From positions 186,001 through 250,000 of the forward strand of contig NZ_AZAC01000002.1 of assembly GCF_000931935.2 (NCBI RefSeq): a stretch of 64,000 nt of DNA. Direction: 5' to 3'. Below are positions 42,104 to 60,632 of the stretch, piece after piece. Position numbers and translations under genes: made by a program. Under the pieces are notes generated by a model. The model made no database searches. It saw nothing but the letters and a program-made list of their open reading frames with translations, and had not been told where the DNA came from. Position 1 is the stretch's first letter, and every line of letters starts with the position of its first letter. The DNA is from Dethiosulfatarculus sandiegensis. GTDB taxonomy: Bacteria; Desulfobacterota; Desulfarculia; Desulfarculales; Desulfarculaceae.

Positions 42104-45100
42104 ATGCGGCAAGTGAAGCGGGAAAGGGTTTTAAATCTCTGTGAGCCTTTCATTGACGGCAGACGCAGGCTGTTGCTCATCGAGGCTCAGGCCGGTCAGG
42201 GCAAATCCACCCTGGCCAGGCAGGTGACCGATCAATTGGATAAGACCGTCTGCCTGGTTGAGTGTGACAAAAACGATGCCGCCCTGGTCAACCTCATGGA
42301 AAAGTTTTTTTCCAATCTTGCCTTGCACACCCCCGGCCTGAACGGTACCGAGATAATCCAGGCTGTATGCTCCTGCCCATCCCAGGATGAATTATTGCTT
42401 CTTTTGCCTGAGATGCTCAAGAGTATTTCCTCTGAGAAGACTCTGCAAAAAACCGTATTGCTCCTTGAGGATGCTCATCTCCTTTTAAAAGCGCCTCATT
42501 CACTCAAAGGGCTCAGGCTCCTGTTTGATCATCTTGGTCACTGCCTTTCCATGATAATAACCAGCCGCTCCCAATTGCCCGGCGAGCAGGGCCTGCTTTT
42601 CAGGCGTAACGAATCTGTTTTGATCTCGAACCAGACTCTGGCCTTTGACAAGTCCGAGGTCCTTTTGTTGTATCGCCAAGCCTATGGTCTGGATCTTGAC
42701 AATAAAAAAGCTGGGAAACTACTTGCCATTACAGAAGGCTGGCCGTTCGGGCTCTCTCTTTTACGCACCGAGCTAAACGAGCTGGACAGGCGGCAAGGCT
42801 TGGCTCCCGGCTCCGAGCTGGATAATTATTTCAACTCCCAATGCCTCGGTATTTTAAGTCCGGAAGAGGCCGATGCCCTGGTGGACGTTTCCCTTTTGGA
42901 AAATATTCCCCTGGCCCTTTTGGGAGAGCTTGAATTGCACACGGCAAGCCGGGCCTTGAAGACTCTTTATGATAAGGGATGTTTTATAACTAACCACAGG
43001 CAGGACGGTTCAGATTTTCTCCGCATGCATCATCTCTTACAGGCCTGCCTGCGTAATATTGTGGAAAATAGGAGCCGTCTGTTTTGTGTAAGGGCCGCTG
43101 GATGGTTTTTGAGAAACGGACAGCTTGGACAGGCCCTGGACTTGCTGGCCCGCTCGGGCGACGTTGCCGAATTGAAAAAGGCTCTTTATATCCATGGTTC
43201 CAACTTAATGTTGATGAACCGGCTTTCCCTGGTGGTTCAGGCCCTTAAGCATCTCCCGGAGAATATCGTAAATGAGGAGCCTTTGCTTTTGGCCCTATGG
43301 GGAAACGAAAAATTGCATCAAAACCCCGGACAGGCCTTAAGATTGTTGGAAGCCGCCTGGAAAATGGCCGGGGATAAAAAAGAAAACCTTGCCGAGCTGT
43401 TGGCCGGTCTGGGGCTGATTAATTATCAGCTTTTGTTTCACGGCAACCTCTGGAAGCTGCGCAGGGTGACCAAACGTGTGATGGAGCTGTTTGCCCTTTT
43501 AGAAGAGCAAAAGGAAATCACGGCCATGTTGGCCGGAGCCTGCTCTTATCTGATCTGCTTCAGTGTCACTTACACCATGGCTGATTATGGTCTGGCCGAT
43601 AAATTTGCCGAAAAGGCAGAGGAAATTTTCAGGTCGCATTCGGAAGGCAGCGTGCCCCTTGGTATTACCGTAGCCAGGATCTATACCAAAAGTGCCAGGG
43701 GGTATCTTAAAGAGTCCCTTTTGCGCCAGCAGAAAAATTATCTTTACCTTAATTCTCCCACTGTAAATCCCAGCACCAAGTTTATCTGCTATTTGAGCTA
43801 CACCAATTTTTCCATGATGAAGGGCTATTTTTTAGACTATTGGTCCCTTAGAGATGAGCTTTTTAAAAAGCAGGCTATCATGGTGAAAAATTCGGCCATG
43901 GGAGCTTTCTATTATATCTGGGACATGGATATGCTCATGGCCAAGGGCGATTTCAGCGGGGTTCTGGAGTTGGCCAATAAGGCGTTGGCTTCAGACCTGG
44001 TCAAGAAAACCAACCATATAGCCAGTCAGTGTCATCAATACATAGCCCTGGCATATGCCTTTTTGGGTAAAAAAGAGGCCGCCTTGGCGGCTGTTTCCAG
44101 ATCCATGCATCTGCGCGCCAGGGTTGGGGGGGTGTTGTTTATTCTGCTCAATCATCTGGTGGCCGGTAGTGTGTGGGGGATTTCAGGAGAATTCAAAAAG
44201 GCTGAACGGGTTTTTAAAATTGTACTTAAGAGGCTGGCGGCTGCTGAAGACAGGTACTTCATGCCCCAGGCCCATGCCTATCGAGCCCATGCCCGTCTGC
44301 TTGAGGGAAAAGAAAAAGAGGCCCTTGATGATGTTAAAAGCATGCTTGAGATAATGGGTTCTGTGGAAAATTACCATTTTTTCTACTGGGAAGGCTTCAT
44401 GGTGAGAAGGCTTTTGGAGCTCTATTTCAAGAACATAAAGAAGCCCTCTGAATTTGCCCTGAAGCTTTACAGGAAACGTTTTGGCATGGATTATATTTCC
44501 GGCGGAGAAACCATTCCCAGGCTTCGCCTCAGCCTGGCCGAAGGCAGGCTTTATTGCCTTGACGCGCCGGATGTCTTTATCGATCTGGCCGATGTTCCGG
44601 GCAAGGAAAGCATGCTGCTGGATTGCCTTTTGCGCACGCCGGACCGTTCGGTAAGCCAGGAAAAAATAATAGACCGCATCTGGCCCGAAGGGGCCAAGGC
44701 CACCAAACCCAGGGATAACCTTTATCAGACCGTGCATAAGTTACGGGCCAGGTTTGCCGCCATTACCAACAAAAAGCTGGCCAAGAAGTATTTGCGGACC
44801 AGCTCGGAAGGACATGCCCTTTGCCATGTGGATGTTGATCTGAACCACCTTTTGGATCAGGCGAAAAAGGGATTGGCGGATTTGTCGCAGAACCGTTTCT
44901 GGATGGCGGAGATGCATTTCCGGGAAATGAAACGGCTTTTGGATCCTTTCCCGGTGGACTATAAGTGGCTCGTTGATGAATCACGTCTCCTGGCAAAGGC
45001 CGTTGTGGCCTGGGTTGATCTTTTGTTCAGGGTGGGTGAGACCGAAAGGGCCTTGGAAGCCGCTGAAATGGGCCTCAAGGTCGATCCGGCCAACGATGGG

Positions 45101-45202
45101 CTGCACAACAGGCGTTATCGGCTCTATATGGAGTTGGCCATGCCTGCCAAGGCCGCCCAGGCCAAGAGCGATTATGAGCGTCTTTTTAAAGAAGCAGGCT
45201 AA
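42104..45202 (+). CDS. MalT-like STAND ATPase transcriptional regulator with SARP-type C-terminus
   Basis: 1032 residues. An N-terminal NTPase has Walker A EAQAGQGKST (28-36) and Walker B TVLLLEDAHLL (about 116-126), followed by ITSRSQLP and the ITEGWPFGLSLL motif typical of MalT/LuxR-type STAND proteins. A long helical TPR-like region covers about 330-790. The C-terminus carries an OmpR/SARP-type winged helix (about 830-900: LLRTPDRSVSQEKIIDRIWPE) and a bacterial transcriptional activator (BTAD-like) TPR domain to the end. Such proteins switch on when ligand drives ATP-dependent oligomerisation. GGAG six bases upstream. It precedes the IclR gene and catabolic cluster, its plausible target. 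Confidence 0.88.
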   Translation: MRQVKRERVLNLCEPFIDGRRRLLLIEAQAGQGKSTLARQVTDQLDKTVCLVECDKNDAALVNLMEKFFSNLALHTPGLNGTEIIQAVCSCPSQDELLLLLPEMLKSISSEKTLQKTVLLLEDAHLLLKAPHSLKGLRLLFDHLGHCLSMIITSRSQLPGEQGLLFRRNESVLISNQTLAFDKSEVLLLYRQAYGLDLDNKKAGKLLAITEGWPFGLSLLRTELNELDRRQGLAPGSELDNYFNSQCLGILSPEEADALVDVSLLENIPLALLGELELHTASRALKTLYDKGCFITNHRQDGSDFLRMHHLLQACLRNIVENRSRLFCVRAAGWFLRNGQLGQALDLLARSGDVAELKKALYIHGSNLMLMNRLSLVVQALKHLPENIVNEEPLLLALWGNEKLHQNPGQALRLLEAAWKMAGDKKENLAELLAGLGLINYQLLFHGNLWKLRRVTKRVMELFALLEEQKEITAMLAGACSYLICFSVTYTMADYGLADKFAEKAEEIFRSHSEGSVPLGITVARIYTKSARGYLKESLLRQQKNYLYLNSPTVNPSTKFICYLSYTNFSMMKGYFLDYWSLRDELFKKQAIMVKNSAMGAFYYIWDMDMLMAKGDFSGVLELANKALASDLVKKTNHIASQCHQYIALAYAFLGKKEAALAAVSRSMHLRARVGGVLFILLNHLVAGSVWGISGEFKKAERVFKIVLKRLAAAEDRYFMPQAHAYRAHARLLEGKEKEALDDVKSMLEIMGSVENYHFFYWEGFMVRRLLELYFKNIKKPSEFALKLYRKRFGMDYISGGETIPRLRLSLAEGRLYCLDAPDVFIDLADVPGKESMLLDCLLRTPDRSVSQEKIIDRIWPEGAKATKPRDNLYQTVHKLRARFAAITNKKLAKKYLRTSSEGHALCHVDVDLNHLLDQAKKGLADLSQNRFWMAEMHFREMKRLLDPFPVDYKWLVDESRLLAKAVVAWVDLLFRVGETERALEAAEMGLKVDPANDGLHNRRYRLYMELAMPAKAAQAKSDYERLFKEAG

Positions 45203-45338: not shown

Positions 45339-46109
45339 TTATTTAGCTCCAAGTTCCCGGGAGAGCTTGCGACAGGTCTCGGTGAGTGAGGTTACCGCCT
45401 TTTCCAAAAGGCTTTCCTCCATGCGGGCCGCCGGGGCGGATATGCTTATGGCGCCGGTTATCTGGCCGGAAAAATCAAATATAGGTGCTGCCACGCATTT
45501 CAAACCCAGGCTCAGTTCCTCTTTATCCAGGGCAAACCCCTGTTCCCTCACTTCTTTCAGCTCTTCCAGAAACTCCATGCGGCTGGTTATGGTGTGCGGA
45601 GTAAGCGCAGTGAAGTGATAGCGGTCCAAAAGAGCCTCCAGCGCCTGTTGGTTCAGAAAAGCCAGACAGACCTTGCCCAGGGCGGTGCAGTGCCCCAGGG
45701 CCTCGCTTCCAATACGGGGGTCGCTGGTCAGGATTTCATTGCTCTCAACCTTGTCCAGATGAATCACCTTGCCCCCATCCCAATATCCCAGGTTTATGGT
45801 CTCCCGGAACTTGGCGGCCAAGGTCTGAAGATAAGGAGCAGCAGCCTTTTTAATAGGTATCTCGCGGCTGATTTTACCGGCCAATTCCAGCACTTTCAGC
45901 CCGACCCGATATCGATGGTTGTCTGTCTTGTAAATATAATCACCGGCTTCCAGGGTGGCTAAAAGACGGTGGCAGGAACTGCGGCTTTGGCCGGTGAGGC
46001 GTGAAACCTCGGTTACGCTCAGTTCCTTGTTGGCTGCCAAAAGCTCAAGCATATTGAGTCCTTTGAGCAGGGTGGAAGCCAACTGACGGTTTTGTTTCTC
46101 CTCTGTCAT
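45339..46109 (-). CDS. IclR-family transcriptional regulator
   Basis: 256 residues from ATG 46109, with GGGGAG eight bases upstream; the frame is open to 46184, but that leader is basic and unlikely. The N-terminal winged HTH (ALLKGLNMLELLAANKELSVTEVSRLTGQSRSSCHRLLATLE) and the C-terminal IclR effector domain (YLQTLAAKFRETINLG...GHCTALGKVCLAFL...FDFSGQITGAISIS) are complete. IclR proteins usually repress or activate an adjacent catabolic operon in response to a small metabolite. It diverges from the gdh-type gene at 46522, so the intergenic region 46110-46521 should carry its operators. Confidence 0.92.
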   Translation of the reverse strand: MTEEKQNRQLASTLLKGLNMLELLAANKELSVTEVSRLTGQSRSSCHRLLATLEAGDYIYKTDNHRYRVGLKVLELAGKISREIPIKKAAAPYLQTLAAKFRETINLGYWDGGKVIHLDKVESNEILTSDPRIGSEALGHCTALGKVCLAFLNQQALEALLDRYHFTALTPHTITSRMEFLEELKEVREQGFALDKEELSLGLKCVAAPIFDFSGQITGAISISAPAARMEESLLEKAVTSLTETCRKLSRELGAK

Positions 46110-46521
46110 CTCCCGATCTCCCCTTTGGCATAGCCTTTTGCTGGATCCGGGCCAGGCAGGCCCCTTGATCCTTTTCTTCCGCACCAGTTGATAATATCAC
46201 CTCTTGAAGTGAAATGTAACCGATATTCGGACACCGTTGCAATTTTTTTGTTATGCCCACTGCTCCAGGGAAAACCATGTTAACCGCGAAATGGGGAGTG
46301 CTCTCTAACCTCAGTTAGGTGTTTTTCTGCGTAATAGTTCTTTCAAACCTAATTATGACCGCAAAAAGCGGAGGGAAAAAACCAACCGTAATGATTGAAA
46401 AAATAAATTTAAATAAGATGATCTGGAATTTAATGTTGACATGGGGCGGGCTATTAACCTAAGGTCTGTTCAAATAAATGGACATTAAAACCGAATATTG
46501 GTCATTAATTGGGAAGTCAAC
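46110..46521. promoter_or_regulatory. Divergent control region between IclR gene and catabolic cluster
   Basis: There is no gene in 412 bases. The short dyad CTAAC-CTCA-GTTAG at about 46306-46319 is a candidate operator. TTGACA at about 46436 has no clearly spaced -10 partner, so no promoter is claimed. The gdh-type ATG at 46522 follows GGGAAG. Confidence 0.35.
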
Positions 46522-47772
46522 ATGGAAAAGAACAAACACGATGTATTCGAGGAAGCGGTAAAGACTTTAAAGAAGGCCGGTGAGATCGGCGGCATAGGCG
46601 AAAACGCCATGGCCTTTTTAGAAGAACCCAAGAGGATTCAGCAATTTCGAATTCCCCTTAAAAAAGATGACGGCTCCTTCCAAGTCTTTGAAGGGTGCAG
46701 GGTTCATTATAACGACGCAATCGGTCCTGTGCGAAACGGCACCCGTATAAGGCCCGAATTTAATGTGGCAGAGGCCAAGGCATTGGGCCTTTTCATGACC
46801 ATCAAACACGCTGTGGCCGATATACCGGCCGGCGGCGCCAAGGGCGGCATCAGGGCGGATGTCGGCAAGCTGACCCAACGCGAGATGGAGACCCTGGTGC
46901 GCTCTTACATCCGGGCCCTGAATCCCAAGGGGCCCTGGTCTGATGTTCCCGGCGCTGACATCGGCACCGGTCAGCAGGCCATGAGCTGGATGCTCGATGA
47001 GTATGAGCAGCTCACCGGTCATCATTGCCCGTCTGCGATTAACGACAAACCCACCAGCCTGGGCGGTTCGTTGGGCGGCGAAGAGGCCACCGGCCGCGGT
47101 GTTTTCCTCACCATGCGGGAGGCCTTGAAAGACATGGGCAAGCCGGTGGAAGGCTGCCGCGCCGTTTTGCAGGGCTTTGGCCAGGTGGGCGTTGCCTTTG
47201 CCGATATGTTGGTTGCCTCGGGCGGTGAATTGGTGGCTGCCTCTGATATCACCGGCGGCGTGACCAATTCCGAAGGGCTTGATCTTGCGGCCCTGAAAGC
47301 CCATGTAGCTGAAACCGGCGGAGTGGCCGGGTTCAGCGGCGGTTCTCCTGTGGGCATTGACGAACTCTTCACCCTGGATTGCGATGTGGTCGCGCCTTGT
47401 GCGGTGCACAATGTTATCCACGAGGAGAACGCGCCTTTGATCAAGGCCAAGTTGATTGTGGAAGGGGCCAACGGTCCCGTGACCACAGGCGCCGATGAGA
47501 TCCTCCATAAAATGGGCGTGATGGTGGTTCCGGACGTGGTGGCCAACAGCGGCGGCGTGATTGTCTGCCATTTTGAGCGCACCCAGGGGCTAAGCGATCA
47601 ATATTGGGATCTTGAAACTGTCTATCAAAAACTTGAGATGCGCATTACCAAGGCCTACAGGCAGTCTGCCGAGGCGGCCAAACAGGCGGGCGGTGCTTCC
47701 TTGCGCCATGGAGCCTGGATTTTCGCCCTGAAGAGGGTGGAAGAGGCCATGCAGCTGCGCGGCTGGATCTAA
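46522..47772 (+). CDS. Glu/Leu/Phe/Val dehydrogenase family protein (glutamate dehydrogenase-like)
   Basis: 416 residues from ATG 46522. The catalytic lysine motif PAGGAKGGI, the substrate-domain motif DVPGADIGTG, the domain junction GGEEATGRGV and the Rossmann motif GFGQVG are all present. The enzyme would oxidatively deaminate an amino acid, usually glutamate, to the 2-oxo acid with NAD(P)+. It opens the plus-strand cluster and could recycle amino groups from the downstream steps. A terminator-like stem-loop separates it from the next gene, so its expression may be partly independent. Substrate specificity is not readable by eye. Confidence 0.9.
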   Translation: MEKNKHDVFEEAVKTLKKAGEIGGIGENAMAFLEEPKRIQQFRIPLKKDDGSFQVFEGCRVHYNDAIGPVRNGTRIRPEFNVAEAKALGLFMTIKHAVADIPAGGAKGGIRADVGKLTQREMETLVRSYIRALNPKGPWSDVPGADIGTGQQAMSWMLDEYEQLTGHHCPSAINDKPTSLGGSLGGEEATGRGVFLTMREALKDMGKPVEGCRAVLQGFGQVGVAFADMLVASGGELVAASDITGGVTNSEGLDLAALKAHVAETGGVAGFSGGSPVGIDELFTLDCDVVAPCAVHNVIHEENAPLIKAKLIVEGANGPVTTGADEILHKMGVMVVPDVVANSGGVIVCHFERTQGLSDQYWDLETVYQKLEMRITKAYRQSAEAAKQAGGASLRHGAWIFALKRVEEAMQLRGWI

Positions 47773-47804
47773 AACAACCTTTCGTCGATGTTTCGATCTC
47801 TAAA

Positions 47805-47835
47805 GGGGCCGGTCGCTTTGGTCCGGCCCCGTTTT
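47805..47835 (+). terminator. Stem-loop between gdh-type gene and ectoine hydrolase gene
   Basis: A perfect stem GGGGCCGG/CCGGCCCC (47805-47812 with 47823-47830), loop of ten, followed by GTTTT. Its position inside the cluster suggests partial termination or a separate promoter for the following genes. Confidence 0.75.
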
Positions 47836-47872
47836 CAAAGAATCAAAAAGGAAACACTAAAGAGAGTTGGCA

Positions 47873-49045
47873 ATGCCTGTTTTTAAGAAGGAAGACTACC
47901 AGGTCAGGGTGGAGAAGGTTAAACAGCGCATGGCGGCCAGGGGATTGGATCTCCTGGTGGTGTCGGATCCGGCGAACATGAATTATCTCACCGGATATGA
48001 CGGCTGGTCCTTTTATGTTCCCCAGGTGGTCATAGTATCCCTTGAAGAGGATGTTCCCTCCTGGATCGGTCGGGGCATGGATACTGCCGGCGCTAAATAC
48101 ACAACCTATCTCCCGTCTCAGAACATCAAAGGATATCCGGATAATTATATACAGACCACTGAACGCCATCCTATTGATTTTGTGTGTGATTTTATAAAAG
48201 AAAAGGGTTGGGAAAAATCCAGGGTCGGTGTGGAGACAGATGCCTATTACTGGACAGCCAGGAGCCAGCAAAGCCTGGAAAAGGGCTTGCCGGAAGCAAA
48301 GGTGGAAGACGCCAATCTCCTGGTTAACTGGGTGAGGCTGATAAAGTCCGACGCCGAGATCGCCCTGATGCGCCAGGCAGGCAAGATAACCGAAAAGGTT
48401 TTGGCAACCGCCATGGAGGTGGTGGCCCCGGGGGTCAGGGAATGTGATGCCGTGGCCGCTATTTACCAGGCCCAGATAAGCGGCACCAACGAGTATGGCG
48501 GTGATTACACTTCCATAGTGCCGATGATGCCCACCGGTGAAAAGACCTCCACTCCCCATCTCACCTGGACCGATGAACCTTATGAAAATGAAGTGGCGGT
48601 GAACCTGGAGCTGGCTGCCTGCCGTCACCGTTATCACAGCCCCATGGCCCGAACCCTGTATCTCGGTAAAAACCCGCCCGCCAAGCTGGTCTCCACCGCC
48701 GAGGTGGTGGTGGAAGGACTGCACGCGGCATTGGATTCGGCCAGGGCAGGGGTGGAGGCCTGGGAAGTGGAGCTGGCCTGGCGCAAGGTTATCGCCAAAC
48801 AGGGCCTGGAAAAGGAATCCCGCATCGGTTATTCCGTGGGCCTGAACTATCCTCCGGATTGGGGCGAGCATACGGCTTCCCTACGCCCCAAAGACACCAC
48901 TGTGCTCAAACCCAATATGACTTTTCATATGATCCTGGGAATGTGGATGGACGGGTGGGGGTTTGAATGCTCCGAAGCCTTCAGGGTCACCGAAGGCGAG
49001 GCAGAGACCTTTGCCGATTTTCCCCGCAAACTTTTCATTAAATAA
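47873..49045 (+). CDS. doeA: Ectoine hydrolase-like M24-family enzyme (DoeA/EutD type)
   Basis: 390 residues from ATG 47873 (TTG 47867 is also possible). It has the creatinase/M24 pita-bread fold. As I recall DoeA, whole blocks agree: MNYLTGYDGWSFYVPQ near the N-terminus, TTERHPIDFV, LVNWVRLIKS, GGDYTSIVPMMPTG, PHLTWTDEP, and YSVGLNYPPDWGE with SLRP. DoeA opens the ectoine ring to N-acetyl-diaminobutyrate. Like creatinase-type members it lacks the full dimetal ligand set of true aminopeptidases. It sits with a TRAP transporter, a deacylase and an EutB-like dehydratase, which supports an ectoine-type pathway. Assignment is from motif memory. Confidence 0.78.
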   Translation: MPVFKKEDYQVRVEKVKQRMAARGLDLLVVSDPANMNYLTGYDGWSFYVPQVVIVSLEEDVPSWIGRGMDTAGAKYTTYLPSQNIKGYPDNYIQTTERHPIDFVCDFIKEKGWEKSRVGVETDAYYWTARSQQSLEKGLPEAKVEDANLLVNWVRLIKSDAEIALMRQAGKITEKVLATAMEVVAPGVRECDAVAAIYQAQISGTNEYGGDYTSIVPMMPTGEKTSTPHLTWTDEPYENEVAVNLELAACRHRYHSPMARTLYLGKNPPAKLVSTAEVVVEGLHAALDSARAGVEAWEVELAWRKVIAKQGLEKESRIGYSVGLNYPPDWGEHTASLRPKDTTVLKPNMTFHMILGMWMDGWGFECSEAFRVTEGEAETFADFPRKLFIK

Positions 49046-49077
49046 ACCGCTGCCAAATATCTGTGGGAAGGGTTCTT

Positions 49078-49707
49078 ATGCAGGAGCAAGCAGACCCGGC
49101 TAATAGTGGAATCAACGGACCATTCGGTAAGTTGGACCGGTTTTTGCTGAAACTGGAAGAGTTTATTCTGGCCTATGGCATCATCGGCCTGGCGTTGCTT
49201 TTAATGGGCAATGTGTTTTCAAGGGTGGTGACCGGCCATTCCATTATGTTCGTTCAGGAAACAGCCCAGGCCATGGTGGTTCTGGTCACCTTTTTGGGGC
49301 TTGGCTATTGCGCCCGCAAGGCCAGGCATATCCGCATGTCGGCCCTTTACGACATCATGCCCGCCAAGGTGCGCAAAGTAATGATAATTCTCATGGCAAC
49401 CGTGACCTGTGCGGTGATGTTTGCCATGGCCTACTGGTCCTTTGAATATGTGCTCAAGGTAAAGGCCTCCGACGCGGTAACCCCCATATTGCGGTTTCCG
49501 GTCTGGCAGATAAACGTCTGGGTCCCCTTGGGCTTTTTCATGGCCGCCTTGGAATACCTTCTGACCATTTTTAAGAATCTGGGCGCCAAAGAGGTCTTTC
49601 TCTCAATAGAGGTTCCGGACGGGTACGAAGAAGAGGCCGTAGGTGCGGATGCGTCTTGCGCAACCGAGTGCGCCAAAGAGGCGGAAGCGGCTGGCGGACA
49701 GGTTTAG
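49078..49707 (+). CDS. dctQ: TRAP transporter small membrane subunit (DctQ/UehB-like)
   Basis: 209 residues from ATG 49078, with GGAAGGG upstream; GTG 49063 would overlap that site. Four TM helices are visible. The family segment FVQETAQAMVVLVTFLGLGYCARKARHIRMSALYD, with its conserved basic motif after TM2, identifies the 4-TM Q subunit. The tail is acidic and Cys/Ala-rich. It pairs with the M subunit at 49797 and the periplasmic binding protein at 52420 to import an organic solute using a Na+ gradient. Position right after the ectoine-hydrolase-like gene suggests the solute is ectoine or a relative. Confidence 0.9.
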   Translation: MQEQADPANSGINGPFGKLDRFLLKLEEFILAYGIIGLALLLMGNVFSRVVTGHSIMFVQETAQAMVVLVTFLGLGYCARKARHIRMSALYDIMPAKVRKVMIILMATVTCAVMFAMAYWSFEYVLKVKASDAVTPILRFPVWQINVWVPLGFFMAALEYLLTIFKNLGAKEVFLSIEVPDGYEEEAVGADASCATECAKEAEAAGGQV

Positions 49708-49796
49708 CTGATTGATTTTAATGAATTTTCGCGTTGCATAATCATGGGCGGGCGCGCGCGGATATATGGTTTTTATCTGCCCGTCTTTAGTGAAAG

Positions 49797-51092
49797 GTGT
49801 TGGGACAAGCCATGCTCACCTGGATGATGATAATCATGCTCGGGTGCCTGATACTGGCGTTTCCTTTCATGGTGGCGTTGATAGCAGCTCCCATATTCGT
49901 GATGGAAAGCAGCTTTCCATTTCTCAATAAGACAATTTTGGCCCAACAGACCATCGGCGGGGTTCAACCCCTGGCCTTGATAGCGGTCCCCATGTTCATC
50001 TTTGCCGCAGATATCATGACCGCCGGTCGTTCGGCTGATTCCCTTTTAAACCTGGTGCGCACCTTTGTGCAGCATATCAGGGGCGGCATGTCCATTGTTA
50101 CGGCAGCGGGATGCACCCTGTTCGGTGCTGTGAGCGGGTCCACCCAGGCCACGGTCTGCGCCATAGGCGGCCCCTTGAGGCCCAAACTGCTGGAGGCCGG
50201 GTATTCCTCCAGCTTTGCCACGGCTCTTATCATCAATGCAAGCGACATAGCCATGCTGATTCCTCCCAGCATAGGCATGATCGTCTACGGTGTGGTCACC
50301 GGCACTTCGGTGGGGGAGATGTTCATAGCGGCTGTGGCGCCGGGTCTGTTTATCCTGCTTCTTTTTTCGGTCTATTGCTATATCTATGCCCTGTTCAAGG
50401 GAATGCCTATTCTGCCCAGGGCTTCATGGGCGGAAAGGTTTGCCGCCTTGAAAGACGCTGCTTTGCCTTTGGGCTTTCCGGTGATAATCGTGGGCGGCAT
50501 CTACGCGGGCATCTTCAGCCCCACTGAAGCGGCGGTGGTGAGTGTCTTTTATGCCTTTTTCCTGGAGGTGGTGGTTTATCGCCACGTAAAGATCAATGAA
50601 ATACCGAAAATAGCCTTGTCCACCGGAGTCGTCACCTCCGTGGTTTTCGTGCTGGTCGGGGTGGGAACCGCCTTTTCCTGGGTGATCAGCTTTGCCAAAA
50701 TCCCCCAGGCCCTGTTGCCGGCGATTCTGGGGCCTGATCCCACGGTTCTGTGGCTGCTTTTGGTGATCAGCTTTTCCTTTTTCATGGGCTGTATGTTTGT
50801 AGACCCCATTGTGGTGATAATTATCCTGGGTCCCATTTTCCATCCTGTGGCGGTCAAGCTCGGTATTGATCCGGTCCTGGTGGGGGTGATCGTCACCCTG
50901 CAGGTGGCCATAGGTTCGGCCACGCCGCCTTTTGGCTGCGACATATTTACAGCCATAGCCATTTTCCGAAGACCCTACTGGGAAGTGGTAAAGGGTTCGC
51001 CTCCTTTTCTGCTCATACTTCTGATCGTCAACTTCACCTTGATATTTTTCCCGTCCCTGGCTCTGTTCCTGCGGGATATGGCCTTTCATTGA
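49797..51092 (+). CDS. dctM: TRAP transporter large membrane subunit (DctM/UehC-like)
   Basis: 431 residues with about 12 hydrophobic segments. DctM signatures are visible: PLALIAVPMFIFAADIM, SGSTQATVCAIGGPL, IPPSIGMIVYGVVTGTSVGEMFIAAVAPG, FSPTEAAVVSVFYAF and ATPPFGCDIFTAIAIF. It is the transport channel of the TRAP system in the inner membrane. The frame opens at GTG 49797, directly after AAAGG; an ATG at 49812 is the alternative. A stem-loop in the 90-bp gap after dctQ may tune expression. The binding-protein gene is displaced by the inserted M20 gene. Confidence 0.92.
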   Translation: MLGQAMLTWMMIIMLGCLILAFPFMVALIAAPIFVMESSFPFLNKTILAQQTIGGVQPLALIAVPMFIFAADIMTAGRSADSLLNLVRTFVQHIRGGMSIVTAAGCTLFGAVSGSTQATVCAIGGPLRPKLLEAGYSSSFATALIINASDIAMLIPPSIGMIVYGVVTGTSVGEMFIAAVAPGLFILLLFSVYCYIYALFKGMPILPRASWAERFAALKDAALPLGFPVIIVGGIYAGIFSPTEAAVVSVFYAFFLEVVVYRHVKINEIPKIALSTGVVTSVVFVLVGVGTAFSWVISFAKIPQALLPAILGPDPTVLWLLLVISFSFFMGCMFVDPIVVIIILGPIFHPVAVKLGIDPVLVGVIVTLQVAIGSATPPFGCDIFTAIAIFRRPYWEVVKGSPPFLLILLIVNFTLIFFPSLALFLRDMAFH

Positions 51093-51122
51093 GCAACCAT
51101 CCGCCTGTGAGGTGTTTTTAAA

Positions 51123-52307
51123 ATGCGGCTTTCCGAGTCTGTAAAAAAACTTACCCCGGAGCTTATTGAACTGCGCCGGGACCTGCATATGCATCCGGAA
51201 TTGGGTTTTTGCGAACACCGAACCGCCCGCCTGGTGGAGAGCTACCTCAAGGATATCGGGGTGGAAGAGATAAAAAGGGTGGCAAAAACCGGTGTGCTCG
51301 GGCTCATCAAGGGTGACGGCAAAGGCCCCACCCTGATACTCAGGGCGGATATGGACGCTCTTCCGGTAGAGGAAGAGAACACCTGCTCCTATCGTTCCAA
51401 GGTTAAAGGCTGCATGCACGCCTGTGGTCATGACGGCCACACAGCGGTGCTTTTGGTTGTGGCCAAGCTGCTTTGCGCCAACCGCCATTGGATCAAGGGC
51501 AATGTGAAGCTCTGCTTCCAGCCCAATGAGGAGGGGGCCGGGGCCCTGCCCATGATTAATGAAGGTGCGCTCGATTCTCCCAAGGTGGACGCCTGCCTGG
51601 GGCTGCATCTTTGGTGTCCCCTTGAGATCGGAGCCATGGCCGTGGATCCGGGGCCGGTAATGGCCGGGATGCATCATTTTCATGTAACCATAAAAGGCAG
51701 GGGCGGTCACACAGCCATGCCTCAGCAGGCGAGAGACCCCCTTCTGGCGGCGGTAGACTTTGTGCAGAAGGTCCAGTCCATCCAGGCCCGGGAGATAGAT
51801 CCCCTCTCTCCCACGATCATTGTTTTCGGCAGTATAAACGGCGGCACCGGTTCCAACATAATACCCGGCCAAGTTGAGCTTGAGGGCACGGTCCGCTATT
51901 TGTACGACCTTTCAAAAGGCGATGAAAGGCCGCTTGAGCGGCTGGAGCGCATCTTAAACGGAGTCTGTGAAACCTGCCGGGTGCAAGGTGAGATATCCTA
52001 CGGAGATTCCCACCCCGCCCTGATCAACGATCACTTCATGGCAAGTCTGGTTCGCCAGGCGGCTGACCAGGTGTTTCCGGGAAAAGAAAAGATAAAAAGT
52101 TTGGTCTCCATGGCGGGCGAGGACTTCAGCGAGTTCGCCAGCCGGGTGCCTTCGGCCTTTTATTTTGTGGGGGCGGGCAACCGGGAAAAGGGGATAGTCC
52201 ATCCCCACCATCATCCCAAATTCGACCTTGACGAAGACAGCCTGGCCCTGGCGGTTTTGATGCAGCTTAAGTGCGTAAAGGGTTATTTCAGCCAAGTAAA
52301 GGCTTGA
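51123..52307 (+). CDS. M20-family amidohydrolase, candidate N-acetyl-diaminobutyrate deacetylase
   Basis: 394 residues of the M20 (hippurate/IAA-amino acid hydrolase) family. Metal-site motifs are CMHACGHDGHTA (Cys and two His), PNEEGAGALPMI (Glu-Glu) and the C-terminal HHHPKFDLDEDSL; RGGHTAMPQQARDP marks the dimerisation domain. M20 enzymes hydrolyse N-acyl amino acids. In classical ectoine pathways the deacetylase (DoeB/EutE) belongs to the AstE/AspA family. None is seen here, so this protein is the natural candidate for that step, as in the alternative DoeB2 type. Start supported by GAGGTG eight bases upstream. Substrate is inference. Confidence 0.85.
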   Translation: MRLSESVKKLTPELIELRRDLHMHPELGFCEHRTARLVESYLKDIGVEEIKRVAKTGVLGLIKGDGKGPTLILRADMDALPVEEENTCSYRSKVKGCMHACGHDGHTAVLLVVAKLLCANRHWIKGNVKLCFQPNEEGAGALPMINEGALDSPKVDACLGLHLWCPLEIGAMAVDPGPVMAGMHHFHVTIKGRGGHTAMPQQARDPLLAAVDFVQKVQSIQAREIDPLSPTIIVFGSINGGTGSNIIPGQVELEGTVRYLYDLSKGDERPLERLERILNGVCETCRVQGEISYGDSHPALINDHFMASLVRQAADQVFPGKEKIKSLVSMAGEDFSEFASRVPSAFYFVGAGNREKGIVHPHHHPKFDLDEDSLALAVLMQLKCVKGYFSQVKA

Positions 52308-52419
52308 TTAAGTCAGGAAGCCATTTTGCATCGCGCGGGCAGAAAGGCTTTCCATATAAAGAGGATTCCGGTCTCCGGACCGGTTGACAGGGGAAAAAAC
52401 GAGCCAAAGGGAGAAGATA

Positions 52420-53445
52420 ATGCGTAAGTTACTAGCGATTGCCGCTGCTGTCGCCATTTCCATCACCATGTTGGCAAGCCTTGCCCTGGCGGCTGATTAT
52501 GAGTGGCGTTTTGCCCTGGAAGAGATCGAAGGCAGCATTCAGCATGAATACGCCAAAAAGTTCAAGGAAGTCATAGAAAAAAAATCAGGCGGAAAGGTAA
52601 AGCTGGATTTCTATTTCTATGGCCAGATCGGCAATAACAACCAAGTTAGTGAGCTTCTACAGGACGGCGCCCTGACCATGGCTTTTCAAAGCCCCGGTCA
52701 CCTGGGCTCCTATATCCCGGAAGTGAACATCTTCAACCTGCACTACCTTTTGCCCGACAACAGGGAAGTCAACAAGGCCATCTTAATGGGCGGGGAAAAC
52801 ACCTACGCCGCCCTGGCTCCCTATTATGCCAAAAAGAACCTCATGCTTTTATCGATAATCCCCGAAGGGTGGCAGGTGTGGAGCCTTAAAAAAGAGGTGC
52901 GCAAGCCTGAGGATTTCAATGGCATGAAGTTCAGGGTCATGACCAGCCCCATGCTGGTCGAGGCTTACAAGGCCTATGGCGCCAATCCCACTCCCATGCC
53001 CTATTCTGAGATCTACAGCGCCTTGCAGCTCAAGATGATCGAAGGTCAGGTGCAGCCCTATTTTGCTCATCAGGAGATGAAGTTTTACGAGGTGACTGAC
53101 TACTTTGTGAACGCCAAGCAGCTGATGTATGTCACCACCCTTTGCTTTAACAAGGATAAGTTCGATTCCCTAAGCCCCGAGATGCAAAAGATGGTGCGGG
53201 AATCCGTGGATGAGGCCACTGCCTGGCTTTTTAAATTTGAAGAGGAATTCAATGCCAAGCGTCTGGCCATGATCAAAAAAGCCAAGCCCGAGATGAAGGT
53301 CGTCAACCTGACTCCCGATGAGATCGCCGCTTTCCGGGCCAAAGCCAAGGACGTGGAAAAGGTCTATCTGGAGATCGGCGGAGACGGTGCGCCCGAGGTT
53401 TTAAAGGCCGTGAGAAAGGACATAAAAGAAAATACCGGTAAGTAG
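52420..53445 (+). CDS. dctP: TRAP transporter periplasmic solute-binding protein (DctP/UehA-like)
   Basis: 341 residues from ATG 52420, with AAGGGAG upstream. A Sec signal peptide (MRKLLAIAAAVAISITMLASLALA) is followed by a mature DctP domain with QHEYAKKFKEVIEKKSGGKVKLDFYFYGQIG. It has LKKEVRKPEDFNGMKFRVMTSPM, which holds the arginine that usually contacts a carboxylate, and NPTPMPYSEIYSALQ. It captures the solute for the Q and M subunits. A stem-loop follows the gene at 53465-53494, often seen after binding-protein genes that need higher expression. Ligand not readable from sequence. Confidence 0.92.
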   Translation: MRKLLAIAAAVAISITMLASLALAADYEWRFALEEIEGSIQHEYAKKFKEVIEKKSGGKVKLDFYFYGQIGNNNQVSELLQDGALTMAFQSPGHLGSYIPEVNIFNLHYLLPDNREVNKAILMGGENTYAALAPYYAKKNLMLLSIIPEGWQVWSLKKEVRKPEDFNGMKFRVMTSPMLVEAYKAYGANPTPMPYSEIYSALQLKMIEGQVQPYFAHQEMKFYEVTDYFVNAKQLMYVTTLCFNKDKFDSLSPEMQKMVRESVDEATAWLFKFEEEFNAKRLAMIKKAKPEMKVVNLTPDEIAAFRAKAKDVEKVYLEIGGDGAPEVLKAVRKDIKENTGK

Positions 53446-53464
53446 AGGCCTTTATAGTATTTTT

Positions 53465-53494
53465 TGCCGCGGCCCCTTTTGGGGGGCTGCGGCA
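53465..53494 (+). terminator. Stem-loop after the binding-protein gene
   Basis: TGCCGC-GGCCCC (53465-53476) pairs with GGGGGGC-TGCGGCA (53481-53494) around TTTT, with a mismatch and a bulge. There is no T-run, so partial termination or 3'-end protection of the dctP message is more likely than a full stop. Confidence 0.6.
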
Positions 53495-53503
53495 GACTAA
53501 AAA

Positions 53504-54262
53504 ATGCTTTCACTGAGAGATGATTCTTTGATCTACCGCATTGAAAAGGGACAGGTGAGCATGGGGGAGCCGGTGGGCATATTGCTTTTGGATACCAGTG
53601 TGCCTTTTGTCCCCGGGGATGTGGCCAATGCCACTACCTGGAACTTTCCGGTTCGCTTTAAGAAGTTGCGCGGCTTTTCCGTGGAAAGGGCCCTTAAAAG
53701 GGATCCGTCCAACTATGAACAGGTTCTGAAGGCGGCCAGGGAGTTGAAAGAAGAGGCGGGGGTGAGGGGGATCACCAGTGATTGCGGCTTTTTGGGCCTG
53801 TTCCAAAAGCCCTTGGCTCAAGATCTTGAGATGCCGGTTTTTCTTTCCAGCCTGATGCAGGCCGACCTTTTGCTGAACATGTTGGGGGAGGATCAAAAAA
53901 TCGGTGTCATAACCGTGGATTCAAGCAGCCTGGATGATGGACTCTTAAAAGCGGTGGGAGTGAGGCAAATAGACCGGCTCTTTATAGCCGGGTTGCAGCA
54001 AAAGAAAAATTTCCATGCCTTTGCCTTGGCTGAGATCGGGGAGCTTGATTTTAAGGCTGTGAGCCAAGAGGTGGTGGAAGTTGCCTTGGAGATGCTCCGG
54101 CAAGACCGCTCGATCGGGGCTTTTCTCCTGGAATGCTCACTTTTGCCGCCCTATGCAGCCAGTGTGCAACAGGCTGTGGGCAAGCCGGTTTTTGACTTCA
54201 CCACCTTGGTCAACTTTGCCTTTTCCGGAATTCAGCGAAGGGAATTCACAGGGTTTGTCTGA
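53504..54262 (+). CDS. Aspartate/glutamate/hydantoin racemase superfamily protein
   Basis: 252 residues. GEPVGILLLDTSVPFVPGDVANATTWNFPVRF opens the fold, GITSDCGFLGLFQ holds the first catalytic-type cysteine and LLECSLLPPYAASV the second. Both cysteines of the two-base mechanism are thus present. Related proteins (including EutA-like members in ectoine clusters, from memory) occur in catabolic operons with no proven reaction. In this cluster it lies between the TRAP binding protein and the EutB-like dehydratase. The start has no clear ribosome binding site because a stem-loop precedes it; an alternative ATG with AGGTGA is at 53561. Confidence 0.78.
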   Translation: MLSLRDDSLIYRIEKGQVSMGEPVGILLLDTSVPFVPGDVANATTWNFPVRFKKLRGFSVERALKRDPSNYEQVLKAARELKEEAGVRGITSDCGFLGLFQKPLAQDLEMPVFLSSLMQADLLLNMLGEDQKIGVITVDSSSLDDGLLKAVGVRQIDRLFIAGLQQKKNFHAFALAEIGELDFKAVSQEVVEVALEMLRQDRSIGAFLLECSLLPPYAASVQQAVGKPVFDFTTLVNFAFSGIQRREFTGFV

Positions 54263-54336
54263 CATGCAAGGCGAAAAAATGAGTGACCAGACTGATAGCC
54301 TGTTGAAACCGTAACTATTTCGTTTGGATAGCCATA

Positions 54337-55329
54337 GTGAGCAGAGAAAAGATGAACCGCCTGACTTTAAGGGACATTTATAAGGCGGCCGGGCGGTTGC
54401 GGAAAAGGGTGTTCAGAACACCGCTTCTGCAGTTTGAGGCCTTAAGCGGGCGCACTGGCAGAGAAATTTATATTAAGCCGGAATTTTTACAAAAAACCGG
54501 TTCGTTTAAGGTGCGTGGCGCATTTAACAGTTTGGGTTCTCTGAGCCCCAAACAGAAGGCGCAAGGGGTGATTGCCTTTTCCACGGGCAACCACGGTCGG
54601 GCAGTGGCCCTGGTTGCAAGGGAAATGGGGATCAAGGCCCTTGTCTGCTGCTCAAAAAGGGTGCCTGACTTCAGGGTGCGGGCCATACGGGACTTAGGCG
54701 CGGAAGTTCGGCAAGTGGGTCAAAGCCAGGACCAGGCTTATGAACATGCTCTGAAGATTCAAAAGGAACAGGGGCTGACTATGATAGCGCCTTTTGATGA
54801 TCCCCTGGTGATTGCCGGTCAAGGGACCATCGGCCTTGAGATTTTGGAAGACCTGCCCGGGCTGGATACGGTTTTGGTCCCTCTTTCAGGCGGAGGCCTG
54901 ATCTCGGGCATTGCTTTGGCCCTTAAAAGCGCTGATCCGAAGATAAAGGTGATCGGGGTCTCCATGGAGTCTGCTCCGGCCATGCAGAAAAGCCTTGAAG
55001 CAGGCAAGCCGGTTGCTATTCCGGAGAAAGACAGCCTGGCCGATGCCCTTTTGGGCGGGATCGGCCTGGATAATCAATACACCTTTGACCTGTGCCGTCG
55101 GTTTGTGGATCAAACCCTGCTGGTGAATGAAGAGCAAATAGCAAAAGGAATCTATTACACACTCACCAGACAAAACCTGGTGCTGGAGGGCAGCGGAGCT
55201 GTGGGGATCAGTGTGCTTTTAGATCGTTTGCCGCCTGATCTTGGGAAAAAGGTGGTTGTGGTGGCCAGTGGAGGAAATCTGGAGAGCGGAATCTTGAGGA
55301 GGCTTTTGGCTGGTGCGCCTTTGATTTGA
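54337..55329 (+). CDS. eutB: EutB-like PLP-dependent dehydratase (threonine dehydratase family)
   Basis: 330 residues (325 from ATG 54352). Fold-type-II PLP enzyme with the Schiff-base lysine in KTGSFKVRGA, substrate loop STGNHGRA, glycine phosphate loop SGGGLISG and C-terminal VASGGN. Compared with ordinary threonine dehydratases it carries VGQSQDQA, APFDDPLVIAGQGTIGLE and ADALLGGIGLDN. I associate these with the hydroxyectoine-utilisation dehydratase EutB. EutB is thought to remove water from a hydroxylated ectoine intermediate. Its presence beside the DoeA-like enzyme argues that hydroxyectoine is handled too. A generic Thr/Ser dehydratase remains possible. Confidence 0.75.
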   Translation: MSREKMNRLTLRDIYKAAGRLRKRVFRTPLLQFEALSGRTGREIYIKPEFLQKTGSFKVRGAFNSLGSLSPKQKAQGVIAFSTGNHGRAVALVAREMGIKALVCCSKRVPDFRVRAIRDLGAEVRQVGQSQDQAYEHALKIQKEQGLTMIAPFDDPLVIAGQGTIGLEILEDLPGLDTVLVPLSGGGLISGIALALKSADPKIKVIGVSMESAPAMQKSLEAGKPVAIPEKDSLADALLGGIGLDNQYTFDLCRRFVDQTLLVNEEQIAKGIYYTLTRQNLVLEGSGAVGISVLLDRLPPDLGKKVVVVASGGNLESGILRRLLAGAPLI

Positions 55330-55395
55330 GAGAACGGACGATGAAAGGGAAAAACGTTCAATTATTAAATTTACAATCTATATATTGGATAGATA

Positions 55396-55773
55396 ATGAA
55401 AAAGGAAATTATCTATACCGAAAAGGCGCCCGAGCCGGGTCACTATTCCCAGGCCATACGCGCGGCAGGTCTTTTATTTGTTTCCGGCCAGACGGCCGAA
55501 GATCCTGAAACCAATAGACCCGTGCATGGCTCCGCTAAGGAGCAGATTCGGATAATTATGAATAATATCAAGTCAATACTTGAAGAAGCCGGTAGCGGTC
55601 TCTCCAAGGTGGTTCGGGCGGATATTTATTTGTCATCTATGGATATAAAAGATGAATTTTCAGCCGCTTATATTGAATATTTCCCCTCGGGCCCGCCTGC
55701 GCGCAATGCCGTGTGCGCAGGCGGTATAGATGATGGCCTGGATGTGGAAATTGAGGTTATAGCGCTTGCCTGA
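55396..55773 (+). CDS. ridA: RidA-family reactive intermediate deaminase
   Basis: 125 residues, full length for the family. Typical segments are PEPGHYSQAIRAAGLLFVSGQTAEDPET, IRIIMNNIKSILEEAGSGLSKVVRADIYLSSM and the closing PPARNAVCAGGIDDGLDVEIEVIAL, where the catalytic Arg of RidA is retained (ARNAV). It hydrolyses the 2-aminoacrylate-type enamines and imines released by PLP dehydratases, which fits its place just after the EutB-like gene (gap 66 bp). It forms trimers in the cytoplasm in known cases. Confidence 0.9.
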   Translation: MKKEIIYTEKAPEPGHYSQAIRAAGLLFVSGQTAEDPETNRPVHGSAKEQIRIIMNNIKSILEEAGSGLSKVVRADIYLSSMDIKDEFSAAYIEYFPSGPPARNAVCAGGIDDGLDVEIEVIALA

Positions 55774-55978
55774 ACCAGTCTGATTCGAGAAGCCAGTAAA
55801 CGCTGAAAACGGTTTCCTGAAAAAAATTAACAGGAGCCTAGGAGAAGTGTTGACAAAATAGCGGATTATTGTTTTAAATATAGAACAACAATTCAACATA
55901 ATGGACATATGCTCTCCCGGGGGGCAAAGTAACTCCGGCAGGGCCAAACAAGCAAAATTGCTCCACAGTGAGGGAAAA

Positions 55979-56929
55979 ATGGCTAGCGAAGTAATGGATA
56001 AAATTCGAGAGTACATGAAATCCGAAGGCATCCCCATCCAAGACGGTCCTCCCCTGCCTTCTTCCGAGAAATCCTTCCCCGACGGCGCTCACTGGCGTAT
56101 TGAGATCGCAGGCGTGGAAAGGGCCAGCACCATGGAGGCCATGATCAAAGAGGCCGACAGGCGGGGTGTGGTGGTGCATCGTGCCATTGCCACTGTGGGC
56201 GGCAGCACTTACTGCGATTTTCAGGAGCTTAAGGATATGGCCACCATGGCCAATGAGGCCAAGATAGAGTTGGTCACTGTGGTGGGGCATCGCAAGGCCT
56301 GGGATGTGGGGGCAAGAGAGATCAGCAACCCCGAAGGGGCTATGCAGGGATTCCGCCTGCGGGGTCAGAACAATATTGTTTATCACCTGGCCGATATGAT
56401 GCGGAATATCGAGGCCGGTCACCGTGGTTTTCTGGTCTTTGACGAAGGCGTGCTTAAGATAGCCTGCGGAATGAGGGCCAAGGGGATCATTCCCACCGAG
56501 ACCATTTTTAAATTTTCCGTGTTCGGCGGTTACTGCTCTGCGGCCGGTGGGCAGATCATTGAACAGATAGGGGTGGACTCGATCAACCCCTTGAGTGATG
56601 TGAGCCTGGGCATTCTCTCCAGCATGCGTGAAGGGCTTAATGTGCCCCTGGACGTCTACACCATTATTGTGGACGCCTTTGGCGGCATGTATCGGGTTTA
56701 TGAGGCGCCTGAAATGGCCAGAGTGGCTGCGCCGATCTATTTCAAGATCGAGCCGGGCACCTCCGAAGGCGATATCTACAAGCCCTGGGCCTTTGAATCA
56801 TTCCATCAGGAACTTGTGCGCGAAAAGGTCAAAATGGCAGAGGTTATCTGCGAAACAATGGATAAACACGCGCCCGAGCTGAAGACCTCACCTGCCGGAC
56901 CGGCGGATCTGAGCCTGCCTGTGGTTTGA
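55979..56929 (+). CDS. TIM-barrel-like protein of unknown function (U32-peptidase-like)
   Basis: 316 residues from ATG 55979 (GAGGG five bases upstream); the frame is open to 55901. Patterns such as VVVHRAIATVGGS, IEAGHRGFLVFDEGVLKIA, KFSVFGGYCSAAGGQIIEQIGVDSINPLSD and VPLDVYTIIVDAFGGMYRVYE suggest a beta/alpha barrel. I loosely recall them from proteins annotated as U32-family peptidases in catabolic clusters, but no activity is established. It lacks a signal peptide. It sits between RidA and PanB on the same strand and may act on a late intermediate. Function unknown. Confidence 0.7.
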   Translation: MASEVMDKIREYMKSEGIPIQDGPPLPSSEKSFPDGAHWRIEIAGVERASTMEAMIKEADRRGVVVHRAIATVGGSTYCDFQELKDMATMANEAKIELVTVVGHRKAWDVGAREISNPEGAMQGFRLRGQNNIVYHLADMMRNIEAGHRGFLVFDEGVLKIACGMRAKGIIPTETIFKFSVFGGYCSAAGGQIIEQIGVDSINPLSDVSLGILSSMREGLNVPLDVYTIIVDAFGGMYRVYEAPEMARVAAPIYFKIEPGTSEGDIYKPWAFESFHQELVREKVKMAEVICETMDKHAPELKTSPAGPADLSLPVV

Positions 56930-57078
56930 TTTTCAGTTAACCCCGGATCCTTCAAACCAGCCGCTTGCATCGATCCGGGGGTGAGCTGGTTTGATACTTC
57001 CGGGGTATGCCCGCTAGTTTAGATAGGCCTTTTCAGTGGGCAGATAACAAAATCCATATAAATAACCAAGGAGCCGAC

Positions 57079-57930
57079 ATGGCTAAAAAAATAAGTATCT
57101 TTGATCTGGTGCAGATGAAGGCAAAGGGCGAAAAGATAGCCTGGCTTACCAGTTATGATTATCCCACCGCCCAGTTCGCCCAAAAGGCGGGCATGGAAAT
57201 GCTTTTGGTGGGTGACTCTTTGGGCATGTGCGTCTATGGATATAACGGCACGGTTCCCGTAACCATGGATCAGTGCATTTGCCATTCCGAGGCAGTGCGC
57301 AGGGGCGCTCCCAATTGCTTTGTGGTGGGGGATATGCCTTTTGCCTCTTATCAGATATCTGATGAGGATGCGGTGATGAACGCGGCCCGCTTTTTAAAGG
57401 AAGCGGATGTGGATGCCATCAAGCTGGAGGGTGGAGTGCGCATCACCTCCCGCATAAAGGCCATTACAGAGGCGGGAATCAACGTTATCGGGCATATCGG
57501 CCTCACTCCCCAAAGCTCGGGTCAATTGGGGGGGCACAAGGCCCAGGGCCGTACGGCCGAGACTGCCAAGTTGGTGGTGGAAGACGCCTTGGCGGTAGAG
57601 GAGGCCGGAGCCCAGATGCTTTTGGTGGAGGCTGTGCCGCCGGAGGTGACCGAATACATCTGGAAGACCCTGGATATCCCGGTTTTGAGTATCGGGGCAG
57701 GGCCTCATTGTGATGGGCAGCTTTTGATAGTAAGCGACCTTATCGGCCAATTCCAGGCGTTCACCCCCAAATTTGTAAAGAAATACTGCAACGTGGCTGA
57801 AGTCATCACAAACGCCATGCAGGAATACGTTAAGGATGTCAAGGCGGTTAAGTTTCCAGATCAGGATAAATACTGCTACCACATGGTGGAGGGCGAAGAG
57901 GATAAGTTCAAGGAACTTATGAAAAGGTAG
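57079..57930 (+). CDS. panB: 3-methyl-2-oxobutanoate hydroxymethyltransferase (PanB) or paralogue
   Basis: 283 residues from ATG 57079, with AAGGAG upstream. Signatures: TSYDYPTAQFAQKAGMEMLLVGDSLGM (metal Asp), RRGAPNCFVVGDMPF, AIKLEGG, NVIGHIGLTPQS, catalytic Glu in LLVEAVPPEV, and SIGAGPHCDGQLL. PanB adds a hydroxymethyl group from methylene-THF to 2-oxoisovalerate for pantothenate synthesis. No panC or panD is nearby. It is the last gene of the catabolic cluster and carries an unusual charged C-terminal tail (YHMVEGEEDKFKELMKR). A role in aldol or retro-aldol chemistry on a catabolic intermediate is therefore possible but unproven. Confidence 0.85.
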   Translation: MAKKISIFDLVQMKAKGEKIAWLTSYDYPTAQFAQKAGMEMLLVGDSLGMCVYGYNGTVPVTMDQCICHSEAVRRGAPNCFVVGDMPFASYQISDEDAVMNAARFLKEADVDAIKLEGGVRITSRIKAITEAGINVIGHIGLTPQSSGQLGGHKAQGRTAETAKLVVEDALAVEEAGAQMLLVEAVPPEVTEYIWKTLDIPVLSIGAGPHCDGQLLIVSDLIGQFQAFTPKFVKKYCNVAEVITNAMQEYVKDVKAVKFPDQDKYCYHMVEGEEDKFKELMKR

Positions 57931-58012: not shown

Positions 58013-58105
58013 ATTTTCCGGGCGGTTTTTGTTTGCCTGGTTTTTAAAACTTCTGACGCCAACTTGGTTTTTAGTTCTGCGGAACCATACGGCTGTTACC
58101 TTCAA

Positions 58106-60606: not shown

Positions 60607-60632
60607 TTTAATATGAAATATTGGAGGTAATT

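Follow-up and report, generated by a model that had tools for sequence, protein, structure and literature searches.

Could an anaerobe degrade ectoine with a gene set that stops short of the known pathway, and where would the carbon go? The question is raised by an eleven-gene operon of Dethiosulfatarculus sandiegensis, located at positions 46522-57930 of a window of 64,000 nucleotides (positions 186,001 to 250,000 of NZ_AZAC01000002.1, part of contig 2 of a 5.93 Mb draft genome). From sequence comparisons, we conclude that this operon is likely to take up and degrade ectoine-like compounds. We further propose, tentatively and with a little less than even confidence, that ectoines would be converted via 4-amino-2-oxobutanoate to pyruvate, methylene-tetrahydrofolate (methylene-THF) and ammonia.

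All eleven open frames are intact and lie on the plus strand, with intergenic gaps of 17-205 bp, and every gene named in a first-pass annotation of this DNA is present as an intact open frame in its place. The operon encodes the following proteins:

46522-47772, plus strand: glutamate dehydrogenase (GDH)-like (ELFV) amino-acid dehydrogenase with an altered substrate pocket (Pfam ELFV)
47873-49045, plus strand: M24 hydrolase of the EutD/DoeA family, by sequence (PDB relatives, TIGR02993, tree)
49063-49707, plus strand: small permease DctQ of a tripartite ATP-independent periplasmic (TRAP) transporter (Pfam DctQ)
49797-51092, plus strand: TRAP large permease DctM (TIGR00786, above cut-off)
51123-52307, plus strand: M20 amidohydrolase (TIGR01891, above cut-off)
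52420-53445, plus strand: TRAP solute-binding protein DctP (PDB relatives, tree group)
53504-54262, plus strand: two-cysteine protein of the Asp/Glu-racemase superfamily, PRK07475 (NF005679, 268 bits, cut-off 231)
54337-55329, plus strand: EutB-type pyridoxal phosphate-dependent dehydratase (NF005680, 417.8 bits, cut-off 413)
55396-55773, plus strand: RidA-type enamine/imine deaminase (TIGR00004, 97 bits; Pfam Ribonuc_L-PSP)
55979-56929, plus strand: orphan TIM-barrel protein, very probably an enzyme, distantly U32-like (AlphaFold barrel, conservation)
57079-57930, plus strand: PanB-type protein of the ketopantoate hydroxymethyltransferase family (Pfam Pantoate_transf, 350 bits)

Judged by its solved relatives and its place in the tree, the M24 protein is a member of the EutD/DoeA ectoine-hydrolase family, as the first-pass annotation had supposed, and does not group with prolidases or creatinases. 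Its best solved relative is EutD of R. pomeroyi (6twk, E 3e-116), against E 3e-16 for the best prolidase and E 4e-7 for creatinase. In the tree it lies inside the EutD family, with the genome's own M24 peptidases on very long branches. It is nearest to proteins from four related loci (L027, L032, L033a and L034a; together EutD1), a grouping by nearness with no starred branch; L026a, L026b, L033b and L034b stand apart as a second group (EutD2), and the canonical proteobacterial EutDs form a separate starred clade. EutD-family proteins also adjoin DUF2817 genes in two metagenome-assembled genomes of Proteobacteria (L036 and L038), with no ectoine genes, which suggests another use of the family.

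The solute-binding protein DctP is, on the same kind of evidence, placed in the wider TeaA/UehA group. Its best solved relatives are 4pfi (the closest), UehA (3fxb) and TeaA (3gyy/2vpn), and it shares with TeaA, UehA and 4pfi an open group with support 89/89 that excludes three other binding proteins encoded in the genome. The EutB-like protein passes one of the two curated EutB models, scoring 373 bits on the other (TIGR02991, cut-off 413). It groups with EutB (fork support 89/89) and away from the threonine dehydratases TdcB and IlvA, in agreement with its first identification.

Two further proteins have no counterpart among the established ectoine enzymes. None of the cluster proteins matches a curated DoeB/EutE model, and the M20 protein scores 287 bits on the DoeB2 model NF038260 (cut-off 550), so that we rejected its assignment as DoeB or DoeB2; on the CpsA model it scores 370 bits (cut-off 500). 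We propose it as a putative N-acetyl-2,4-diaminobutyrate deacetylase that would replace DoeB/EutE. The racemase-like protein, both Cys motifs of which are kept in five copies, matches PRK07475 only. It was rejected as EutA because it has no TIGR02990 match and no BLAST match to the EutA of Leisingera, on which the comparison rests.

The gene-order search in Desulfobacterota that the first-pass annotation had suggested recovered the same gene set in other Desulfobacterota-type genomes: six loci of this type, the window and five others (L026, L027, L032, L033 and L034), share the core. The TIM-barrel gene is found at all six EutD loci and PanB at five. These two genes and that for the GDH-like enzyme had been correctly recognised but described as extra, a label that proved wrong, as all three are part of the conserved core. 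An IclR gene accompanies all six loci, with homologues 41-43% identical at the five related ones. Locus L027 carries IclR, PanB, TIM-barrel, GDH-like, EutD1, racemase, M20 and TRAP genes, and L032 has the same set with TRAP partly present. Both L033 and L034 have the set of L027 together with EutB and EutD2, except that a class I/II aminotransferase takes the GDH slot; in addition, L033 carries a Usp gene, and L034 a gene of EutC type whose score clears the curated cyclodeaminase model and falls short of the TIGR EutC model. At L026, TIM-barrel, TRAP, GDH-like, M20, EutB and RidA genes occur with two EutDs. Among 395 genomes sampled from the phylum, three encode this EutD type, and all three belong to the six with the TIM-barrel gene (p = 1.3e-4, with the window's genome left out and kinship ignored). 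Since the core recurs at five other loci and EutD and the TIM barrel co-occur in this way, the association of the genes is not due to chance. The cluster is rare, also within the window's own family (one of 20 genomes), and this patchy distribution points to horizontal transfer or to repeated loss.

The PanB-type protein bears on how the pathway might end. It retains the metal ligands and the catalytic Glu of E. coli PanB in the alignment. The genome contains six PanB genes (the other five, L045-L049, at C2:152982, C77:108156, C2:283142, C11:154394 and C14:435679) and a single panC, on another contig. One of these paralogues falls with the PanBs of the clusters in a supported clade; it adjoins genes for a LarAH10-type racemase and an IlvD-type dehydratase, and a tetronate-kinase-like gene is nearby. 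Twenty related PanB loci (L102-L121) have neighbours that include LarA, tetronate-kinase-like, IlvD, homoserine-dehydrogenase-like, TRAP, IclR and GntR genes, and at none of the 20 is panC next to PanB. Dehydration of a C4 sugar acid yields 4-hydroxy-2-oxobutanoate, which a PanB acting in reverse could, as we infer, split into pyruvate and methylene-THF, and this would account for the LarA, IlvD and tetronate-kinase-like neighbours. In vitro, ketopantoate hydroxymethyltransferase accepts various 2-oxo acids for coupling to formaldehyde (PMC7611260), which places a reaction of this type within reach. It is possible, though somewhat less likely than not, that this PanB branch and its TIM-barrel partner would work as a ketopantoate hydroxymethyltransferase running backwards in anaerobes, converting 4-amino and 4-hydroxy C4 2-oxo acids (from ectoines, tetronates and homoserine-type compounds) to pyruvate and methylene-THF.

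PanB paralogues are present in many Desulfobacterota, often in catabolic operons linked to IclR or GntR. PanB has a gene of the homoserine dehydrogenase family ahead of it at five loci (L107, L108, L109, L111 and L112). At L109 (4462-10537), PanB is followed by genes for a URO-D-like protein and a B12-binding corrinoid protein, hinting at methyl or one-carbon transfer.

For the TIM-barrel protein, NCBIfam and solved structures gave no match, and Pfam none above cut-off; a profile search against solved structures returned one marginal match. AlphaFold predicts a confident generic barrel (predicted template modelling score 0.84), and a fold search retrieved generic barrels only (query TM-score <=0.48), from which no function could be read. 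Polar residues are conserved at most of the strand ends, and together with the confident model these indicate that the protein is very probably an enzyme; K178 and K256 belong to the conserved polar set. The window protein does not reach the Pfam gathering score for peptidase U32, having no match to it at all, and six of 13 family members match it weakly (best E 1e-5). An assignment as PdxS, as in a Priestia cluster, was rejected: the Priestia protein belongs to SOR/SNZ (PdxS), and that of the window matches no family above cut-off. A match to pyridoxal decarboxylase over 52 residues (E 3e-4, below cut-off) was put down to chance. In Thermomicrobium the TIM-barrel gene lies near a gene for a mandelate-racemase-type enzyme. 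A distant relative on a plasmid of Enterobacter chuandaensis (L042, 7980-8918) has aminotransferase, oxidoreductase and nucleotidyltransferase genes as neighbours, in a biosynthetic-looking cluster.

The GDH-like enzyme scores below every curated GDH cut-off. The GDH motif VSYFEWVQN reads VCHFERTQG in the window copy; Cys replaces the motif Ser in all four cluster copies (VSYFEW to VC.FER), and the window copy has Lys changed to Arg at what we presume to be the glutamate side-chain pocket, to which we also assign the other altered positions. Because VSYFEW is changed in all four copies, glutamate is an unlikely substrate, and we propose that the enzyme may deaminate 2,4-diaminobutyrate (DABA). 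The aminotransferase in the GDH slot of L033 and L034 fits a step in which DABA loses an amino group.

The first half of the proposed pathway is known: ectoine is converted by EutD to N-acetyl-DABA and by a deacetylase to DABA, and the conversion of hydroxyectoine to hydroxy-acetyl-DABA by EutD has also been documented (PMC13188858, PMC8739950). The substrate, the reactions and their order, and the roles of the TIM-barrel and racemase-like proteins are what we infer in the following scheme. The TRAP transporter would import ectoine and hydroxyectoine, the EutD-like enzyme would open the ring, and the M20 enzyme would remove acetate to give DABA or 3-hydroxy-DABA. Deamination of DABA by the GDH-like enzyme would yield 4-amino-2-oxobutanoate. 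The same compound would arise from hydroxy-DABA through dehydration by EutB and hydrolysis of the resulting imine by RidA; at L034, the pair of EutB and EutC would lead back to DABA instead, in analogy to BhcB and BhcD. The cleavage of 4-amino-2-oxobutanoate into pyruvate, methylene-THF and ammonia would then fall to PanB, acting together with the TIM-barrel protein or following it. The two-cysteine racemase would presumably fix the stereochemistry. An anaerobe with an acetyl-CoA pathway could use both pyruvate and methylene-THF.

Several observations weigh against this scheme, and those on the uptake and hydrolase proteins qualify the earlier annotation of the operon as one for ectoine and hydroxyectoine breakdown, which the placement of EutD, EutB and the TeaA/UehA-group binding protein makes likely. 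The M24 protein scores below the curated cut-off for DoeA (TIGR02993, 486 against 613 bits), as do its relatives at L026 and L027, and the EutD1 proteins read FYVPQ where all other aligned EutDs read FYVHQ (His to Pro). Of the TeaA residues E9, F66 and W167, which we take to be ectoine-site positions, DctP keeps E9 and has F66 replaced by His and W167 by Tyr. The TIM-barrel gene occurs without a nearby EutD at L024, L025 and L028, and is hence not ectoine-specific; its neighbours are amidohydrolase, IlvD-type dehydratase and short-chain dehydrogenase/reductase genes at L025 and an amidohydrolase gene at L024. The PanB gene is not beside the cluster at L026, and the racemase is also found at L027 and L032, where no EutB was found. 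We found no documentation in the literature of PanB acting on a 4-amino acid.

The substrate is the largest doubt. The operon might serve a different cyclic amidine, an N-acylated diamino acid or a pantothenate-related compound, with the EutD-like protein as a divergent member of its family. This would agree with the low EutD score, the His to Pro change, the altered aromatic residues of DctP (the binding proteins of the related loci are just 31-38% identical to it) and the DUF2817 neighbours of EutD-family proteins in Proteobacteria. We consider it unlikely, however, as the EutB-like protein exceeds a curated cut-off and is placed with EutB, the sister clusters contain a EutC homologue and a Usp gene, and the cluster contains no pantoate dehydrogenase or pantothenate hydrolase.

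A conventional ending ranks just below this and is likewise unlikely. In it, an aminotransferase and an aldehyde dehydrogenase encoded by unlinked genes would convert DABA via aspartate semialdehyde to aspartate, glutamate would be recycled by the GDH-like enzyme, and accessory roles would be left to PanB and the TIM barrel. Class III aminotransferases and aldehyde dehydrogenases are encoded elsewhere in the genome, the best of them 37% identical to DoeD and 35% to DoeC, and the aminotransferase at L033 and L034 could be read in the same sense. These points are opposed by the altered GDH pocket in all four copies, by the place of PanB and the TIM barrel in the conserved core, and by the lack of a dedicated DoeC or DoeD. 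That PanB simply supplies ketopantoate for pantothenate, and came to lie in the operon by chance, would suit its intact catalytic residues, but is very improbable given the six PanB genes with panC on another contig, the five loci that keep it next to the TIM barrel and EutD, and the many catabolic neighbours and missing panC at the 20 related loci.

Compared with known systems, the operon resembles the proteobacterial eutABCDE/doeABCD and ehuABCD/uehABC clusters of S. meliloti and R. pomeroyi in its EutD-family hydrolase, EutB-family dehydratase and UehA/TeaA-group uptake, and in the EutC and Usp genes of some sister loci. Unlike those clusters, it is without EutE/DoeB, EutA, EutC, EnuR, AsnC, DoeC and DoeD, four of which (EutC, EnuR, DoeC and DoeD) the first-pass annotation had already noted as not visible, and has M20, the GDH-like enzyme, the two-Cys racemase, RidA, the TIM barrel, PanB and IclR instead. 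Putative EutD clusters of Thermodesulfobacteriota without eutE and ssd have been tentatively described (Boas Lichty et al., April 2026, PMC13188858). They agree with ours in phylum, EutD and EutB homologues, TRAP genes, the lack of eutE and ssd and the lack of synteny with proteobacterial clusters, and differ in usually having two eutD genes where the window has one; the main text of the paper makes no mention of PanB, GDH, RidA or IclR. What is new relative to it is the conservation of PanB, the TIM barrel and the GDH-like enzyme as a set, the clade of catabolic PanBs, the altered pocket of the GDH-like enzyme and the route proposed from these; EutD clusters in the phylum are not new. A putative Bacillus/Priestia cluster (pucR-eutBCD-M20-homoserine dehydrogenase-aldehyde dehydrogenase) is similar in EutD (56% identity), EutB (47%) and M20 (36%). 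It differs in having PucR, a cyclodeaminase, a PdxS-like protein and homoserine and aldehyde dehydrogenases, and in having no GDH, PanB or orphan TIM barrel. The PanB of the window shares family and catalytic residues with ketopantoate hydroxymethyltransferase, and departs from the usual PanB in belonging to a type found in IclR-linked catabolic operons, in several copies per genome and away from panC, and in the proposed direction of cleavage.

The surroundings of the operon contain three further features:

42104-45202: large regulator of STAND type that carries AAA and Trans_reg_C-like domains, just upstream of the IclR gene
45339-46184, minus strand: IclR-family regulator, divergent from the operon (Pfam IclR_C, 155 bits)
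58018-58040, plus strand: terminator-like hairpin 3' of PanB (consensus scan)

The divergent IclR gene most likely encodes the regulator of the operon, and the hairpin is its probable end. An operator search of the 337-bp divergent region yielded just two weak inverted repeats, and promoter-like matches in a consensus scan were at chance level. We found no sign that the STAND-type regulator belongs to the cluster. Downstream, the frame 60621-62060 appears by eye to encode a multicopper-oxidase-like protein with an export-type start. EctC of ectoine biosynthesis was not found in the genome, in a search without a positive control. The genome encodes formyl-THF synthetase and an acetyl-CoA synthase family protein, which supports the early guess that the organism is an anaerobe.

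Ectoine is a widespread osmolyte of saline habitats; according to PMC13188858, its catabolism has been proved by experiment in only a few Proteobacteria. If true, the proposed route to pyruvate and methylene-THF would suit anaerobes with an acetyl-CoA pathway, and would allow EutB, whose role is unsettled, to be tested as a dehydratase of hydroxy-DABA that has RidA as its partner in place of EutC. It would also provide a role for many unexplained PanB paralogues and a target reaction for the orphan TIM-barrel family, and would reveal an unrecognised link from the breakdown of osmolytes and sugar acids to one-carbon metabolism.

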